From Streptomyces griseus (GTDB taxonomy: Bacteria; Actinomycetota; Actinomycetes; Nanopelagicales; Nanopelagicaceae): 64,000 nt of DNA. The stretch's first letter is position 1. Each line of letters starts with the position of its first letter. Location: contig CAMCYO010000003.1 of NCBI GenBank assembly GCA_945884695.1, positions 1-64,000 on the forward strand, given 5' to 3'. Positions 31,285 to 41,715 of this stretch are shown in pieces. The notes under the pieces were generated by a model, which saw nothing but the letters and a program-made list of their open reading frames with translations, was not told where the DNA came from and did no database searches. Both the position numbers and the translations under genes were made by a program.

Positions 31285-32040
31285 TTAGTGGTCGTCCTTC
31301 ATTCCTTCTGCTACTGACTTCATTCGTGCAATTTTCAGAATAGTTAAACCGAAAACGCACTTTGCAACTACGTCAGCGATGCTGTAACCCACTTGACGAT
31401 ACAAGAACGCATCGGTTCCTGTGATATTCAAGAGAGGGAAGAGGTAGGAGATTGGATATACACCCCATGAAGCAATAAGAAGAAGCCTTAAGCGCCCGAC
31501 GGTTGCTGCGACTCCTTCTGGCTGACGCTCTAGTGATTTTCCAAGTTCTACATAAAGTACATAGAGAATGTACAAGAATGGAATCGTAGAGAGCACTCCG
31601 AATAGAATCTTTGTGCTGTTTTCCGTTGCAATCTCGCCTGGGTAGCCGAGAGCGATCATTGCAATTGCTGCTGGTACCAGACGTCCAATTAATGAACTTG
31701 AAGCAGCTTTAGCAAGTGCAAGAACTGCTACTAATTCTACCAATAGTAGTGGAACAGTTAATAGCCAATCTACATAACGGTATGCCTCGTTAAATGAACC
31801 AGCTCCAGATGTGCTCACATTAAATCCATCGGATGCTTCAGCAAAAGAATTGAAGATTCTGATGTAGTGATAGCCAGCAATAAAAGTGACCATCGATGAA
31901 ATGACGAGTGCGTTTCTATATTTTGGAAGCACGCGGTTCTGTGACACAAGCGTGTACACGGTGCATGCCAACATTGAAATGAGTCCAAACGAAAATACGT
32001 TATAGACCATATTCCATTGAGTACTTGTGAGAGTAAGCAT
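31285..32040 (-). CDS. actR: Actinorhodopsin (light-driven proton pump)
   Basis: The 251-residue seven-helix rhodopsin has the retinal Schiff-base lysine K227 (ADVVAKCVFG). The proton acceptor D91, T95 and donor E102 lie in YRYVDWLLTVPLLLVE, the DTE pattern of outward proton pumps. L99 corresponds to the spectral-tuning site and predicts green absorption. H58 matches the histidine partnered with the acceptor in proteorhodopsin. G148 (KILFGVLSTIPF) aligns with the fenestration glycine of Gloeobacter rhodopsin and xanthorhodopsin, which permits a carotenoid antenna. A ribosome-binding site (GGAGG) precedes the ATG. No retinal or carotenoid gene is present in the window. Confidence 0.95.
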   Translation of the reverse strand: MLTLTSTQWNMVYNVFSFGLISMLACTVYTLVSQNRVLPKYRNALVISSMVTFIAGYHYIRIFNSFAEASDGFNVSTSGAGSFNEAYRYVDWLLTVPLLLVELVAVLALAKAASSSLIGRLVPAAIAMIALGYPGEIATENSTKILFGVLSTIPFLYILYVLYVELGKSLERQPEGVAATVGRLRLLLIASWGVYPISYLFPLLNITGTDAFLYRQVGYSIADVVAKCVFGLTILKIARMKSVAEGMKDDH

Positions 32041-34452: not shown

Positions 34453-34508
34453 CCTTCTCCTATAAGTATTGTCTTACGAAGATTACTTACTCAACCCAAG
34501 GAGTTACT

Positions 34509-35348
34509 GTGGCTGTAAAGAAAGTAACCGCTAAGAAGTCTGCGGCCAAGAAGAAACCAGCAAAGAAGGCAACTGCAAAACGATCTGTTGCCAAAAAATC
34601 ACCGGCAAGAAAATCTGCCGTGAAGAAGTCAGTTATTAAAAAGACTACGGCTAAGAAATCAGCAAAGAAGAAATCTGTTGCTAAAAAGTCTGCGTCCAGA
34701 AAGAAATCTACGGCAAAAAAATCCTCTGCAAGAGGTACAAAATTTAGCGTTCCACCAGTTCCGATTGGATCTGTTTCTCGGTCCTCAAGAATTGATGTTG
34801 GAACGACACCAACTCCTAAGGGTGCTCTGACATCAAAAGTTTCACCGGCGAAGAAAGTTGGAAACTCTAATCGCGTATTTATCGCAGTAGCAATTGGAGT
34901 TGCTCTTTTATTGCTGATTGTTTGGGGAAGATCAACAGGTAGCGATGACGAAGCTGCAACACCAGCGCCTTCTATTCCTGCAGTTGAATCCACAACTCCA
35001 GCACCTGAACCAACCGAATCTGCTTTAGAAACTTCAGTTCCTACAGTTTCTGCAGTTGAAGCACCAGGTGGCGTAGTTGCTCATTATTACAAGGCAACAG
35101 GAACTACAACTATCTTCTGGAAAGCTCCAATGGCAGTTGACGGCTTGACCGGCTACAGCGTTGAAGCTTCATCAAATAGCGGAGAGTGGACAATGCTCTC
35201 AACAGTCCCTGCAACGCAACTCTCACTAGATATTACTAAGGGTGAAAGTTCTTCAACGGACTGGACATCGTTTAGAGTGTCAAGTGTTTATGCAGATTCA
35301 CAAATTGCATCTGCTAAGCCATTTGGTTTACCAGGCATGTATTCATAA
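34509..35348 (+). CDS. Membrane protein with histone-H1-like Lys/Ala tail and extracytoplasmic fibronectin-III-like domain
   Basis: The 279-residue protein has three parts. Residues 4-76 are a low-complexity chain of AKK, VKK and SAKK repeats like the C-terminal tails of histone H1 and HU/Hc1-type proteins. Residues 123-139 form one membrane helix. A Pro/Thr/Glu linker (146-180) leads to a domain of about 85 residues (187-272) with a fibronectin-III-like pattern (TIFWKAPM then TGYSVEASS). By the positive-inside rule the basic region is cytoplasmic, and could bind DNA or RNA, with the other domain outside. The GTG start has AAGGAG upstream. I know no named family for this combination. Confidence 0.75.
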   Translation: MAVKKVTAKKSAAKKKPAKKATAKRSVAKKSPARKSAVKKSVIKKTTAKKSAKKKSVAKKSASRKKSTAKKSSARGTKFSVPPVPIGSVSRSSRIDVGTTPTPKGALTSKVSPAKKVGNSNRVFIAVAIGVALLLLIVWGRSTGSDDEAATPAPSIPAVESTTPAPEPTESALETSVPTVSAVEAPGGVVAHYYKATGTTTIFWKAPMAVDGLTGYSVEASSNSGEWTMLSTVPATQLSLDITKGESSSTDWTSFRVSSVYADSQIASAKPFGLPGMYS

Positions 35349-35360
35349 GACGTTTTACTA

Positions 35361-35397
35361 AATAGCCCTCGCACTTTGTGCGAGGGCTATTTTATTT
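35361..35397. terminator. Bidirectional intrinsic terminator
   Basis: AATAGCCCTCGCAC and GTGCGAGGGCTATT form a near-perfect stem of about 13-14 bp around a short loop, with TTTTATTT following on the + strand. On the minus strand the A-rich start provides the U-run. The stop codon of the convergent acyltransferase gene (35387-35389) is inside the stem. Confidence 0.9.
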
Positions 35398-37153
35398 CTG
35401 GCGCTTGAAGAAGTGTAAGAATTGCACTGACATAAGCATTTATACCTTCGGGAACTAAGTGAACTCCATCGGGTGCAAAATACTCAGGATGCCCCTCAGA
35501 AATTTTGCGCCAATCAACAACCGATGCCTGCGAATACTTTTGTGCATACTTAGCGATCAACGCATCATTCTCATCACGCCAGCCTCTTGGGACCGCAGTA
35601 TTGACCACAATAATTTGGGGTTGGTTTTTAATCAACTCAAAAATTTTGGCTACTTCTGCCTCAGCCAAACGATTATTATTTCCAAGGTTTAGAACTATTG
35701 GAGAATTGGGAACTTTGAGGATGTCATGTTCTATCGCCGCTATAAGTTCTGGTGCTTGACGTCCCACACGGGCATTAATTAAGTCAATAGGTTGAGTCTG
35801 AGCCAGTTCATAACGAATGCCTAGAATAACTGAATCTCCCGTAACCCAAAGCCCAGGGATTGTTGAAGGACTTATGTCAGGTTGAGTTTCAGGCTGGCTC
35901 AAGCTGGTTTCAAGTGCTTTCTGGATGCGATCACTTTTCGCTATTGCATTCACGCTGACAAGTGAAGTTGCAATAACAAGAGCGATTACTGAAATTAGTA
36001 CAGCAACCTGTTGTCGAACTCGTACTTTTGTTGTTCGATATTTCATTCCTCTAAACCAGGATTCAACTTGGTCATTTCGGAATGGAAGTTCAACCCACCT
36101 CAGTGAGATGTCAGCAAGTGCAAACACTATAAGAAGTCGGAGCGCATAAAGTGCCCACGGTTGGCCAGTTAAATCAACCGTTGGGCGAGTTACTTGAAAA
36201 ATAATCCAATGCCAGAGATAGATTGCATAAGAGCGTTTACCAATCCATAGAAAGACTGAATTTGTTAGAACTGGTGCAAAACGTGAGGCTGGATGCACAA
36301 CAGACATAATGATTGCGCAACCAAAAATTCCTGCAAGTGGGAAGGCTAATCTATAAAGACTTGGATTACTCTCATCAATAAAAAGAAAACAAGAGATGAG
36401 TCCGAGAAAACCCACCACCCCAATTCCATCGATAAAATCCTGAGCTCTTTGTACGATATTTGTAGTTAAGTTCTGTGGCACCCAACTAACAGCAAGTGCT
36501 GCACCAAGAAATAGACCAATGCTGTGGGTATCTGTTCCAAAATATACGTGGCTAACACTTTGAGCGTTTGCATCATCTAGGCGAAATGAGAGTAACAAAA
36601 GTGCTGCACCAGAGAATGTGGCAATGCCTAGCGCTGCAGCAGGAATAACCTTTTTACCAAAGCGCTTGAGTACAAATAATAGGATTAATGGCCAGATGAT
36701 ATAAAACTGACTTTCAACAGCAAGGGACCACGTGTGCTGAAGAAGCGGTGGACGCCCAATGGAGGCAAAATAATCCTGGTGTCGATAAACAAGTGCCCAG
36801 TTCATGCTTCCGCTTAAAACATAAGGTAGATCTGAAAGGAATCGTTTAATGGCCTCTGGCGCCCAGACTCCAACAAAAAGTGCTGTTGAGAAAATCATGA
36901 AAACAAGAGCGGGAAGTAATCTACGAATGCGCCCAGCATAGAAACCGCGAAGATCTAACCCACCACTTCGCTGAATGGAATCCAATAGCAATCGAGTAAT
37001 AACGTAACCAGAAATGACAAAGAATAGATCTACTCCAAGAAATCCACCTGGTAGCCAAGAAAAGCCAAGGTGATAAAGCATGACCGCAATGACAGCAACT
37101 GCACGCAGTCCATCAATCGCGGGTATATGTCGAATACCGCGTTTATCATCCAT
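35387..37153 (-). CDS. Acyltransferase-3 (OafA/YrhL-type) membrane protein with C-terminal SGNH domain
   Basis: The 588-residue protein starts with the acyltransferase-3 signature IPAIDGLRAVAVIAVMLYHLG (His in the active site) and has ten or more helices up to about residue 385. The HTWSLAVESQFYIIWP segment is also typical. The C-terminal domain (about 430-588) has SGNH blocks: GDSVILGI (block I) and DGVHLVPEG (block V with catalytic Asp and His). OafA-type enzymes add acetyl or other acyl groups to surface polysaccharides. The upstream coiled-coil gene is 5 bases away, so they may share a transcript. Confidence 0.87.
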   Translation of the reverse strand: MDDKRGIRHIPAIDGLRAVAVIAVMLYHLGFSWLPGGFLGVDLFFVISGYVITRLLLDSIQRSGGLDLRGFYAGRIRRLLPALVFMIFSTALFVGVWAPEAIKRFLSDLPYVLSGSMNWALVYRHQDYFASIGRPPLLQHTWSLAVESQFYIIWPLILLFVLKRFGKKVIPAAALGIATFSGAALLLLSFRLDDANAQSVSHVYFGTDTHSIGLFLGAALAVSWVPQNLTTNIVQRAQDFIDGIGVVGFLGLISCFLFIDESNPSLYRLAFPLAGIFGCAIIMSVVHPASRFAPVLTNSVFLWIGKRSYAIYLWHWIIFQVTRPTVDLTGQPWALYALRLLIVFALADISLRWVELPFRNDQVESWFRGMKYRTTKVRVRQQVAVLISVIALVIATSLVSVNAIAKSDRIQKALETSLSQPETQPDISPSTIPGLWVTGDSVILGIRYELAQTQPIDLINARVGRQAPELIAAIEHDILKVPNSPIVLNLGNNNRLAEAEVAKIFELIKNQPQIIVVNTAVPRGWRDENDALIAKYAQKYSQASVVDWRKISEGHPEYFAPDGVHLVPEGINAYVSAILTLLQAPEIK

Positions 37154-37158
37154 AAAAA

Positions 37159-37968
37159 CTATTTCCGTTTAGGAGATGACTTCTTTGCAGGTTTCTTTGA
37201 AGCCTTCTTTGAGGGTTTACGTTTTGGAGCATTGAGTGCAGGCTTAGATCTTTCGCTGGCGACGTTGATTGGGCCACGGTTTAATAAAGTTCCATCTTCG
37301 TTGAGATTCTGTTGAACGGCTTTTTGTAAATCATGAAGACGCACAAATGCACTCTCTAATCGAGATCTAGACTGCTGTATCGCACCTTCTGCTGCATCTA
37401 GAGATTGAGTTTGTATTTTATGGAGGCGTTCGGCTTCAGAAATTACCTCTGAGAGCCACTGGCGGTATTCGATAACTTCGCGAGCAGCATCGGTAATGAT
37501 TCGCTCGCCTTCTCGGCGTGCAGCGGCAGCAAGAGAGGCCGCTTCGCGCTTCTTACTTTCAAAAGCACTTACTGCTTCCAATTCAGCTTTTTCAATCAAG
37601 TCCTGTGCATCTGACTCTGCGGCTTGAATATATTTACGCCCACGGGTTTCAGCAGTAGCAAGGAGTGCTTTAGCTTTCTGATCAGCACTTTCAATGGCGT
37701 CCTTGGCACGTCGAGCAGTTTCGTTGATAACTCGGTCAGAAGTTGCCTGCGCCTTTGCCTCACGCAATTGTGCCGACTTAATCATTGTCATTGCTGTTTC
37801 GGTTGCAAGGATTTCGAACTCTTCTTTAGATAAAGTCTTTATGTCGCGTCGAGAATTGAGGTCAGCTAATTTGGATTCAAGTTCTCTAATGCGGTCAACA
37901 GATCCAGGCGCATCAACTTCTTCGCCTTTGAAACCAACCCAGCTGAGGAAAGAATTCTTTTCGCCCAT
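37159..37968 (-). CDS. Coiled-coil (DivIVA-like) protein with histone-like basic tail
   Basis: I choose ATG 37968 (MGEKNSFLSW, 269 residues); an in-frame start at 37983 adds five. Residues from about 20 to 220 are a long heptad-rich helix with many Ala, Glu, Lys and Arg, as in DivIVA/Wag31-like and cytoskeletal proteins. The C-terminus (about 235-269) is a Pro/Lys/Ser tail such as KRKPSKKASKKPAKKSSP. The tail resembles the N-terminal region of the membrane protein at 34509. I infer a structural or nucleoid-associated role; a specific family is not recognised. Confidence 0.6.
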   Translation of the reverse strand: MGEKNSFLSWVGFKGEEVDAPGSVDRIRELESKLADLNSRRDIKTLSKEEFEILATETAMTMIKSAQLREAKAQATSDRVINETARRAKDAIESADQKAKALLATAETRGRKYIQAAESDAQDLIEKAELEAVSAFESKKREAASLAAAARREGERIITDAAREVIEYRQWLSEVISEAERLHKIQTQSLDAAEGAIQQSRSRLESAFVRLHDLQKAVQQNLNEDGTLLNRGPINVASERSKPALNAPKRKPSKKASKKPAKKSSPKRK

Positions 37969-38079
37969 ATTCAACTGCCTCACTATCTGTAGGTGCTCAG
38001 GTTAGAGCACAATTGCGCCTCTCCAAAAGACCGAGACACTCACCCCAAACTCTCAGGCAGACTTATTTTCTCTCGGAAT

Positions 38080-39012: not shown

Positions 39013-40056
39013 ATGCCCACACATGAATTAGAACAAACTTTTGGTTCACTTGCAAAATATATGCAAGATCCCGAAATCGAAGAGATTTGGATCAACTCAC
39101 CTGAAAGAATTTTTATTGCACGTTACGGTAGAAATGAATTAACAAACCTACTCCTAACCAGCGATGACGTGAGAAACATTGTCGATCGCGCACTTATGTG
39201 GAGTGGGCGACGCCTTGATCTTTCGCACCCATTTGTCGATGCTCGCCTACCTGATGGCAGTCGCTTACATGTTGCGATCCCTGAAGTGACACCAGAACAT
39301 TGGGCGGTCAATATTCGCAAACATCTTTTAAGAACGCTTTCGCTTAACGATTTAGCAGGTCGAAATGCAATGTCACCACAGATTGCTCAACTTCTTGCAC
39401 AAAGCGTTTGCGCCGGTGTAAACATATTGGTCAGTGGTGGAACTCAGGCAGGGAAAACCACGCTACTTAATGCCCTTGTTTCAGCGATCCCAATACAAGA
39501 GCGGGTAATTACTATTGAAGAAGTATTCGAGTTGAAACCTAATCTGCCCGACGTCGTAAGTTTGCAAACTAGGAGCGCAAATCTGCAAGGTGAGGGAGAA
39601 ATAGCACTCCGTCGTCTAATAAAAGAATCTTTACGCATGCGTCCTTCACGAATAATTGTCGGCGAAGTTCGAGAAGCAGAAGCCCTAGATCTTCTTATTG
39701 CACTTAACTCAGGACTGCCTGGAATGGGAACAATTCACGCAAACTCAGCTCGAGATGCAATTGTGAAATTACAAACTCTTCCCTTATTGGCTGGTGAAAA
39801 TATCTCGCAAAAATTCATTGCTCCAACAGTCGCATCAGCAATTGATATCGTCGTTCAAGTTCGTTTGGACAACTCTGGCGCTCGACGAATTACCGAAGTT
39901 GCAAGCGTTACAGGGCGGGTTGAAAATGATCGAATCGAAGTGGAAACACTTTGGAGTTGGAGTCACGATCATTACGAACGCGGTTTAGGCACTCTTCCAA
40001 AACCCGAAAGATATTCCTTGGCAGGAGTTAATGTTAAGAATTGGTGGACAGAGTGA
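39013..40056 (+). CDS. tadA: Tad pilus secretion ATPase TadA/CpaF
   Basis: The 347-residue ATPase powers assembly of Flp/Tad pili. It has Walker A SGGTQAGKTT (141-150; Gln-Ala in place of the usual Gly-Ser), an Asp box IVGEVREAEALDLLIALNSG and a His box GTIHANSARDA. The N-terminal region LEEIWINSPERIFI is typical of CpaF. It is shorter than many CpaF proteins because the N-terminal extension is missing. tadB follows with a GTGA overlap. Confidence 0.9.
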   Translation: MPTHELEQTFGSLAKYMQDPEIEEIWINSPERIFIARYGRNELTNLLLTSDDVRNIVDRALMWSGRRLDLSHPFVDARLPDGSRLHVAIPEVTPEHWAVNIRKHLLRTLSLNDLAGRNAMSPQIAQLLAQSVCAGVNILVSGGTQAGKTTLLNALVSAIPIQERVITIEEVFELKPNLPDVVSLQTRSANLQGEGEIALRRLIKESLRMRPSRIIVGEVREAEALDLLIALNSGLPGMGTIHANSARDAIVKLQTLPLLAGENISQKFIAPTVASAIDIVVQVRLDNSGARRITEVASVTGRVENDRIEVETLWSWSHDHYERGLGTLPKPERYSLAGVNVKNWWTE

Positions 40057-40934
40057 ATCAAACATTTACTTCAGCCATTCAGCCATTTTTTATAGCTGCG
40101 CTAACAAGTGCGCTGTGTGGTCTAGGACTAAGTTTCATGGATAAAAAGAGTTTTAGTTACAAGTCAGAGCAAAGCCAGGCTCAGAAAAGCTCACATCAAA
40201 GTATTTGGTTTCATCACAGGGTCGAAGTCACTTATTCATGCGCTGTAGGTTTTACTGCGGGAATTCTCATCTCAATCTGGACGAAATCCTTAGTGATTGC
40301 AATTCCCTTTATTTTTCTCTCTTCTGCGGTTACTTGGTCGATTATTCGCTCACGTGCAATCAAACATGAAGTTGCTATGGGCAATATTTGGCCAGAAGTA
40401 ATTGATCACATAATTTCGGGCATTCACTCAGGGTTGTCTCTATCGGAAACACTCGTTGGACTAAGTACGAGAGGCCCCGAAACGCTTCGGCCCATTTTTT
40501 CAGAGTTTCATAAAGAGCTCCTACACACTGGAGATTTTACGCTTGCCGTTTCACGTCTTAAATCTAGGTTCAATTCACATAGCAGTGATCAAATTTTAGA
40601 AGCCCTCTTACTTGCAAAGGCACTAGGAGGCTCTGAACTTCTTCAAATCTTTCGAACTCTCGGTGACTTTCTGCGAGAAGATCTAGCTTTACGGAAAGAG
40701 ATTGCTATTAAACATGGCTGGATAAAAAATTCAGCTCACCTTTCATCGGCTGCACCTTGGATATTGCTCTTGCTTCTCTCAAGCCAACCAGGGACTGTTG
40801 ATTCATTCTCAAGCCCGGGCGGAATTGCAATTCTCATCATTGCGATGGTGATGACGACCATTGCCTATCTTTGGATGGGTCGCCTTTCGCGCTTACCAAA
40901 AGTTTCGCGAATTTTTGCAGAAAGCGAGAGATGA
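40053..40934 (+). CDS. tadB: Tad pilus assembly protein TadB
   Basis: The start is taken as GTG 40053, whose last bases overlap the tadA stop (GTGA). The product of about 293 residues has two N-terminal and two C-terminal helices around a cytoplasmic type II secretion F domain: VIDHIISGIHSGLSLSETL and EALLLAKALGGSELLQIFRTLGD are its two repeats. It forms the inner-membrane platform with TadC. Confidence 0.85.
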   Translation: MNQTFTSAIQPFFIAALTSALCGLGLSFMDKKSFSYKSEQSQAQKSSHQSIWFHHRVEVTYSCAVGFTAGILISIWTKSLVIAIPFIFLSSAVTWSIIRSRAIKHEVAMGNIWPEVIDHIISGIHSGLSLSETLVGLSTRGPETLRPIFSEFHKELLHTGDFTLAVSRLKSRFNSHSSDQILEALLLAKALGGSELLQIFRTLGDFLREDLALRKEIAIKHGWIKNSAHLSSAAPWILLLLLSSQPGTVDSFSSPGGIAILIIAMVMTTIAYLWMGRLSRLPKVSRIFAESER

Positions 40935-40935
40935 A

Positions 40936-41715
40936 GTGAGCATTCAAATTCTGCTGCCCTTATTCCTTGCCTCTGCTGGGGGACTTACTTTATTCATTGA
41001 ACCATCTATTTCTCGTAAGAGAGTGGAATCTATAAAAGACAGTTCGGGAGTTCGCGAACGCCTTTCGCGAATTGGAAGAATTAACAGTTACGAGAGTTTT
41101 CGAATCAAACAAGTCACTCAATCACTTGTCGCAATTTCGTTAAGCTTCTTAGCCATTTATCTGCTTTCTCAGTCCCTCTTTGTTGCAACGCTCTTGGGCC
41201 TAACATCTGGAATTGCACTCTATTACTTGATTGATTGGCAATTAAGTCAAGAGGTTAAGAAGTATCAACAACGGATTGAAAATGAGTTCCCAGCTGTTGT
41301 TGAAATGTTAACTCTTGCGCTCTCCGCCGGTGAGACCCCTCTGGGTGCCATAACCCGTATTTCTAAAAGAGCCCACGGACTTATTGGCAACGAATTTGAA
41401 CTCGTAATTTCGGCAGTTCGTAATGGAACCCCATTTCATGTTGCACTCGATGCTTTCTCCCGTCGAATTGATTCCATCGTTATACGCCGATTCATTGATG
41501 CGCTCATCACTGCGATGCTCCGAGGTGCACCACTCATTGACGTTTTATCTCGACATGCATCAGAAGCTAGATCCCTTCAGCGCAATTTATTGATGGATAA
41601 AGCGGGCAAAGCAGAAATTTCAATGATGATTCCTGTTGTCTTTCTTATCTTGCCGATTTCAATACTTTTTGCCTTGTATCCATCGATGACGCATCTTAAT
41701 TTATTTGCAGGCTAG
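40936..41715 (+). CDS. tadC: Tad pilus assembly protein TadC
   Basis: I choose GTG 40936, one base after the tadB stop (260 residues; start VSIQILLPLFL). It has the T2SF domain with FPAVVEMLTLALSAGETPLGAI and RRFIDALITAMLRGAPLIDVL, and a C-terminal hydrophobic pair ending in ILFALYPSM. It completes the platform for the pilus. No prepilin peptidase, secretin-like or TadZ gene follows; the next gene is on the other strand. Confidence 0.85.
   Translation: MSIQILLPLFLASAGGLTLFIEPSISRKRVESIKDSSGVRERLSRIGRINSYESFRIKQVTQSLVAISLSFLAIYLLSQSLFVATLLGLTSGIALYYLIDWQLSQEVKKYQQRIENEFPAVVEMLTLALSAGETPLGAITRISKRAHGLIGNEFELVISAVRNGTPFHVALDAFSRRIDSIVIRRFIDALITAMLRGAPLIDVLSRHASEARSLQRNLLMDKAGKAEISMMIPVVFLILPISILFALYPSMTHLNLFAG

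Follow-up and report, generated by a model that had tools for sequence, protein, structure and literature searches.

Very few membrane-anchored nucleoid proteins are known, and the way in which bacterial chromosomes are attached to the cell envelope is still an open question. The 64,000-nucleotide stretch of DNA analysed here (the window) contains a gene at positions 34509 to 35348 on the + strand whose product joins a lysine-rich tail, a membrane helix and an outer domain in one chain, and the question is whether this product is such an anchor. The gene, hereafter the candidate tether gene, runs from a GTG start to a stop and encodes a 279-residue membrane protein. Its ribosome-binding site, AAGGAG (34498 to 34503, + strand), lies 5 bases 5' of the GTG and is kept in two near relatives; a strong terminator hairpin (35360 to 35392, not assigned to a strand) sits between this gene and its convergent neighbour. 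Conservation and selection identify the + strand as the coding strand for 34509 to 35348. A reverse-strand open reading frame at 34487 to 34993 was rejected as a gene, being a phenylalanine-rich mirror of the lysine codons.

An AlphaFold2 prediction built on 33 orthologues divides the protein into five parts, all encoded on the + strand. Residues 1 to 80 (34509 to 34748) form a disordered lysine-rich tail with an xKKSx-type pentad repeat, and residues 81 to 119 (34749 to 34865) form a disordered cytoplasmic linker from the tail to a single 21-residue membrane helix at residues 120 to 140 (34866 to 34928; pLDDT of about 78). Beyond the helix, a disordered, acidic outer linker rich in Ser, Thr, Pro and Glu (residues 141 to 182; 34929 to 35054) leads to a predicted fibronectin-III beta-sandwich (residues 183 to 277; 35055 to 35339; pLDDT of about 95). 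Across the helix of the window protein, the charge changes from +38 (tail side) to -9 (outer side); the corresponding ranges over all 33 orthologues are +24 to +46 and 0 to -20, so that by the positive-inside rule the tail is predicted to be cytoplasmic. Ser/Thr/Pro stalks and fibronectin-III domains are typical of outer segments. The predicted outer domain is a fibronectin-III fold: Foldseek matched it to fibronectin-III structures with a probability of 1.00, and the best structural match, 2w1n, gave a VIA Z score of 12.5 and an rmsd of 2.1 over 90 residues. The Pfam fn3 profile (PF00041) gave nothing at an E value of up to 1 for the window protein; it was matched by 13 of the 33 orthologues at E values of up to 0.1 (best E, 0.0019). 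The first-pass annotation, which had described an AKK-type basic tail of about 70 residues, a single membrane helix and an outer fibronectin-III-like domain, was thus right about the helix, the outer domain and its fold, as well as about the existence of the tail, which is about 80 residues long.

The tail has 33 K/R and no D/E among its 80 residues, a K/R enrichment with a binomial P value of about 1e-13 against a mean of 9.7% K/R in nine proteins encoded nearby. Across the 33 orthologues its length ranges from 45 to 97 residues, its K/R fraction is 0.41 +/- 0.03, and its 5-residue K/R periodicity has a z score of 29 against shuffles; the composition is 37% K and 24% A, followed by V, S, T and P, with acidic and aromatic residues nearly absent. 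Comparison of the window with two close relatives gave a tail dN/dS of 0.05 to 0.09, as low as that of the fibronectin-III domain (0.08 to 0.13), and the two linkers evolve faster (0.12 to 0.30). Tail synonymous sites are heavily changed (dS, 0.8 to 1.4), every alignable tail K/R is retained (31/31, 30/30 and 28/28), and the indels among close relatives are mainly whole pentads. Tail length is therefore loose, and charge density and pattern are tight. It had been set beforehand that a tail varying in both length and charge would count against a function; only the length varies, so this objection fails and a functional tail is favoured. In Pfam, the tail was matched best by HC2 (histone H1-like nucleoprotein, PF07382), found for 18 of 33 members at E values of up to 0.1; the window protein scored 29.4 bits (E, 1.1e-6; tail only), below the gathering score of 40 bits, and profile matches to low-complexity sequence are weak evidence of kinship. 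In kind, the protein is nevertheless H1-like, having a long disordered K/A tail with a pentad repeat that is under selection.

A second conserved element lies between the tail and the helix. The linker opens with VPPVP (residues 81 to 85; 34749 to 34763, + strand), an instance of a [VI]Px[VA]P motif that is present in 32 of the 33 aligned orthologues and is often followed, 8 to 14 residues later, by a less strict [ST]xP. In the alignment, P82, P85 and P101 show little or no variation; one further orthologue (L045) carries a tandem copy of [VI]PxVP, and the motif is absent from two of six further orthologues (L039 and L040). Conserved short motifs within disordered linkers often dock a partner, and this motif probably docks a cytoplasmic one.

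A search with a profile of the outer domain found strong orthologues (E < 1e-20) in 183 of the 201 genomes of the order, which consists of a single family with genomes mostly of 1.0 to 2.2 Mb; six further genomes of the order gave weak generic matches only. At the loci read, the gene lies between rdgB and an O-acyltransferase gene, and it follows rph (RNase PH) and rdgB, two genes related to RNA and nucleotides. Truncation at a contig edge accounts for one absence (genome G054), and in genome G039 the contig stops shortly past rdgB. In genera g5, g9 and g12 (one genome of each) the candidate tether gene is missing at the locus and murI-rph-rdgB is intact. In the window, an actinorhodopsin-like gene (31285 to 32040, - strand) adjoins murI. 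Together with the genome sizes and the single family of the order, this gene points to Candidatus Nanopelagicales (acI), tiny freshwater actinobacteria.

Outside the family, a search with the FN3 profile returned generic FN3 matches only, mostly in long proteins. Tail-only matches beyond the island-bearing genera were rejected as relatives, as none had a helix and a fibronectin-III domain; they comprised ribosomal protein L17, plain AKK proteins and a protein in which an unrelated segment follows an AKK-like stretch. The L17 of genus g12 has a long AKKAPAKK tail (L068, 1904 to 2605, - strand; L069, 709 to 1422, + strand). In the island-less g5 genome (G024), a 134-residue protein made almost entirely of AAKKRPAKK-type repeats (L070, 1068 to 1472, + strand) is encoded 5' of a gene that probably specifies a methionine aminopeptidase. 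Another actinomycete shows an AKK stretch on a different fold: directly after DivIVA it encodes a DksA/TraR-type protein (L109, 2301 to 2978, + strand) with a stretch of TVPAKK repeats.

Two further genes lie directly after the candidate tether gene and are convergent to it, and together the three form an island. The second (35387 to 37153, - strand) encodes an OafA-type membrane O-acyltransferase whose C-terminal part is likely to be SGNH; its best NCBIfam match is the SucT acyltransferase, far below the cutoff, and where genomes were checked its orthologue next to the tether gene is 66 to 73% identical. The third (37159 to 37983, - strand) encodes a coiled-coil protein whose N-terminal part bears SFLSWVGFK and whose C-terminal tail is short and K-rich. 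Its strong matches are confined to this family, it has no Pfam match and belongs to no known family, and its invariant features are a W, a GF and an EEFEILATETAM-type block. The coiled-coil protein of genome G025 (L089) ends with VPEVPFKKPAAKR, which resembles the [VI]PxVP motif of the candidate tether protein. Beyond the island, Tad-type pilus genes encoding a CpaF-like ATPase and TadB/TadC-like proteins occupy window positions 39013 to 41715 (+ strand).

In the genomes checked, the presence pattern of the coiled-coil gene matches that of the candidate tether gene, and orthologues of both neighbours are found next to the latter. The genomes of the sister genera g5 (G024) and g9 (G028) have neither a coiled-coil match nor an orthologous acyltransferase, and g12 lacks the acyltransferase orthologue. 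Apparently the three genes are acquired or lost as a set, and this joint presence and absence suggests that they share an envelope role. The DivIVA domain (PF05103) had zero matches in 11 genomes of the family, the coiled-coil protein included, and was found in 9 of 10 other Actinomycetes genomes tested. The coiled-coil neighbour was not accepted as a DivIVA, since it has no PF05103 match; against actinobacterial DivIVA its hhalign probability was 18%, in the N-terminal GF/GY region, and a Wag31 model, which matched along with other coiled-coil models, gave a best E value of 2.7e-4.

On balance, we lean slightly towards the view that the protein is a membrane-anchored histone-H1-like protein of the kind represented by mycobacterial Rv3852, linking the nucleoid to the membrane and envelope. 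We postulate that the disordered cytoplasmic tail would bind the nucleoid without sequence specificity, that the helix would keep the bound DNA at the membrane, and that the fibronectin-III domain, on its flexible acidic stalk, would fix the protein to an envelope partner, whether glycan or protein. The PxVP motif would meanwhile dock a cytoplasmic partner, for which the coiled-coil protein of the island is the first candidate. On this view, a link from the chromosome to the cell envelope is the probable role of the protein. A bolder and rather doubtful version is a trans-envelope anchor: the nucleoid would be gripped by the H1-like tail, the coiled-coil protein, standing in for DivIVA, would dock at PxVP, and an O-acylated envelope would keep the fibronectin-III domain in place; if so, these cells, among the smallest that are free-living, would have chromosome position mechanically coupled to envelope growth.

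Several other explanations have to be weighed against a nucleoid link. One is that the protein organises the envelope and that nucleic acid has no role, the tail binding acidic lipids of the inner leaflet, polyphosphate or an acidic protein. Any polycation would bind such polyanions, and the island partners, an O-acyltransferase and a coiled-coil protein, are envelope- or scaffold-like; however, an H1-type pentad repeat of 45 to 97 residues far exceeds what positive-inside topology or lipid binding needs, and we regard this explanation as unlikely, if still a serious one.

A tether for RNA or ribosomes, whose tail would bind rRNA or mRNA and keep ribosomes or transcripts at the membrane, appears about equally unlikely to us. 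AKK tails occur on L17 in the sister genus g12 and on RplV, whose AKKA repeats accompany binding to 23S rRNA and which failed to bind DNA (PMC10665949), and RNase PH and rdgB are encoded upstream. On the other hand, the protein has no folded RNA-binding domain, and rph-rdgB occurs without the tether gene, so the linkage is unnecessary for rph and rdgB function. Furthermore, in the HU of this genome an AKK-type tail is attached to a genuine DNA-binding fold, which means that this organism puts such tails on a DNA binder. Of the chromosome and RNA tethers between which the first-pass annotation had left the choice, DNA is favoured, and the anatomy and conservation described above fit a tether of this kind. 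Since AKK tails are also found on RNA-binding proteins, DNA is the likely ligand and is put no more strongly than that.

The reverse topology would place the lysine tail outside the cell and the fibronectin-III domain in the cytoplasm; the positive-to-negative charge step across the helix in 33 of 33 orthologues and the Ser/Thr/Pro stalk with its fibronectin-III domain, both of the outer type, make it very improbable. Its attraction is that the tail would then be a heparin-binding tail like that of HBHA, whose similar AKK repeats bind sulfated glycoconjugates (PMC10665949). Least credible is a neutral low-complexity passenger that slippage of repeats added to an outer fibronectin-III anchor protein. 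The pentad-sized indels do resemble slippage-like changes in length, but the low tail dN/dS, the retention of every alignable K/R and the constant charge density across 33 orthologues all argue against it.

Among known proteins, those of the RodZ type, which are bitopic, and the lamin B receptor have a nucleic-acid-type segment that is likewise connected across a membrane to another compartment; their domains differ on both sides, and the analogy is one of layout. Hc2 (PF07382) and the AKK tails of HU/HupB are of the same lysine/alanine kind as the tail described here; however, these are soluble nucleoid proteins without a membrane helix. HBHA of Mycobacterium tuberculosis, whose AKKA-repeat tail is reported to bind both DNA and surface glycans (PMC10665949), differs in having the tail at its C terminus and in lacking an arrangement of helix and fibronectin-III domain. 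Literature searches on nucleoids in freshwater actinobacteria and on proteins of such architecture found nothing relevant. The first-pass annotation knew no named family for the protein, which holds for the architecture as a whole, but a functional precedent exists in Rv3852 ("H-NS") of M. tuberculosis (PMC8233713, PMC4433263). The PAKK repeats of Rv3852 bind DNA (PMC4433263), and its C-terminal helix tethers the protein to the membrane while it is DNA bound, spreading the nucleoid; without the helix, the nucleoid condenses (PMC8233713). Rv3852 also binds the coiled-coil scaffold Wag31/DivIVA and helps its polar placement, and it is confined to slow-growing mycobacteria (PMC8233713, PMC4433263).

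Like Rv3852, the candidate tether protein combines N-terminal lysine-rich repeats with one transmembrane anchor helix in a single chain and is confined to a lineage. Unlike Rv3852, whose chain ends at the helix and which lacks an outer domain, it does not have its helix at the very C terminus and adds a folded domain of about 95 residues; Rv3852 has just five tetrapeptide repeats, and a PxVP motif is unreported in its papers (PMC8233713, PMC4433263). The likeness is one of architecture as described, since the tails are too simple to prove descent. What is new here is a lineage-wide variant of the Rv3852 kind with an added outer domain, together with a three-gene island and a [VI]PxVP motif conserved on the cytoplasmic side. 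This candidate anchor combines a constrained tail with an outer domain and with partners inherited alongside it; it appears to be fixed across nearly the whole of an order of genome-streamlined bacteria, and the tether idea that Rv3852 exemplifies becomes testable outside the mycobacteria, with a docking motif and partner genes to probe.
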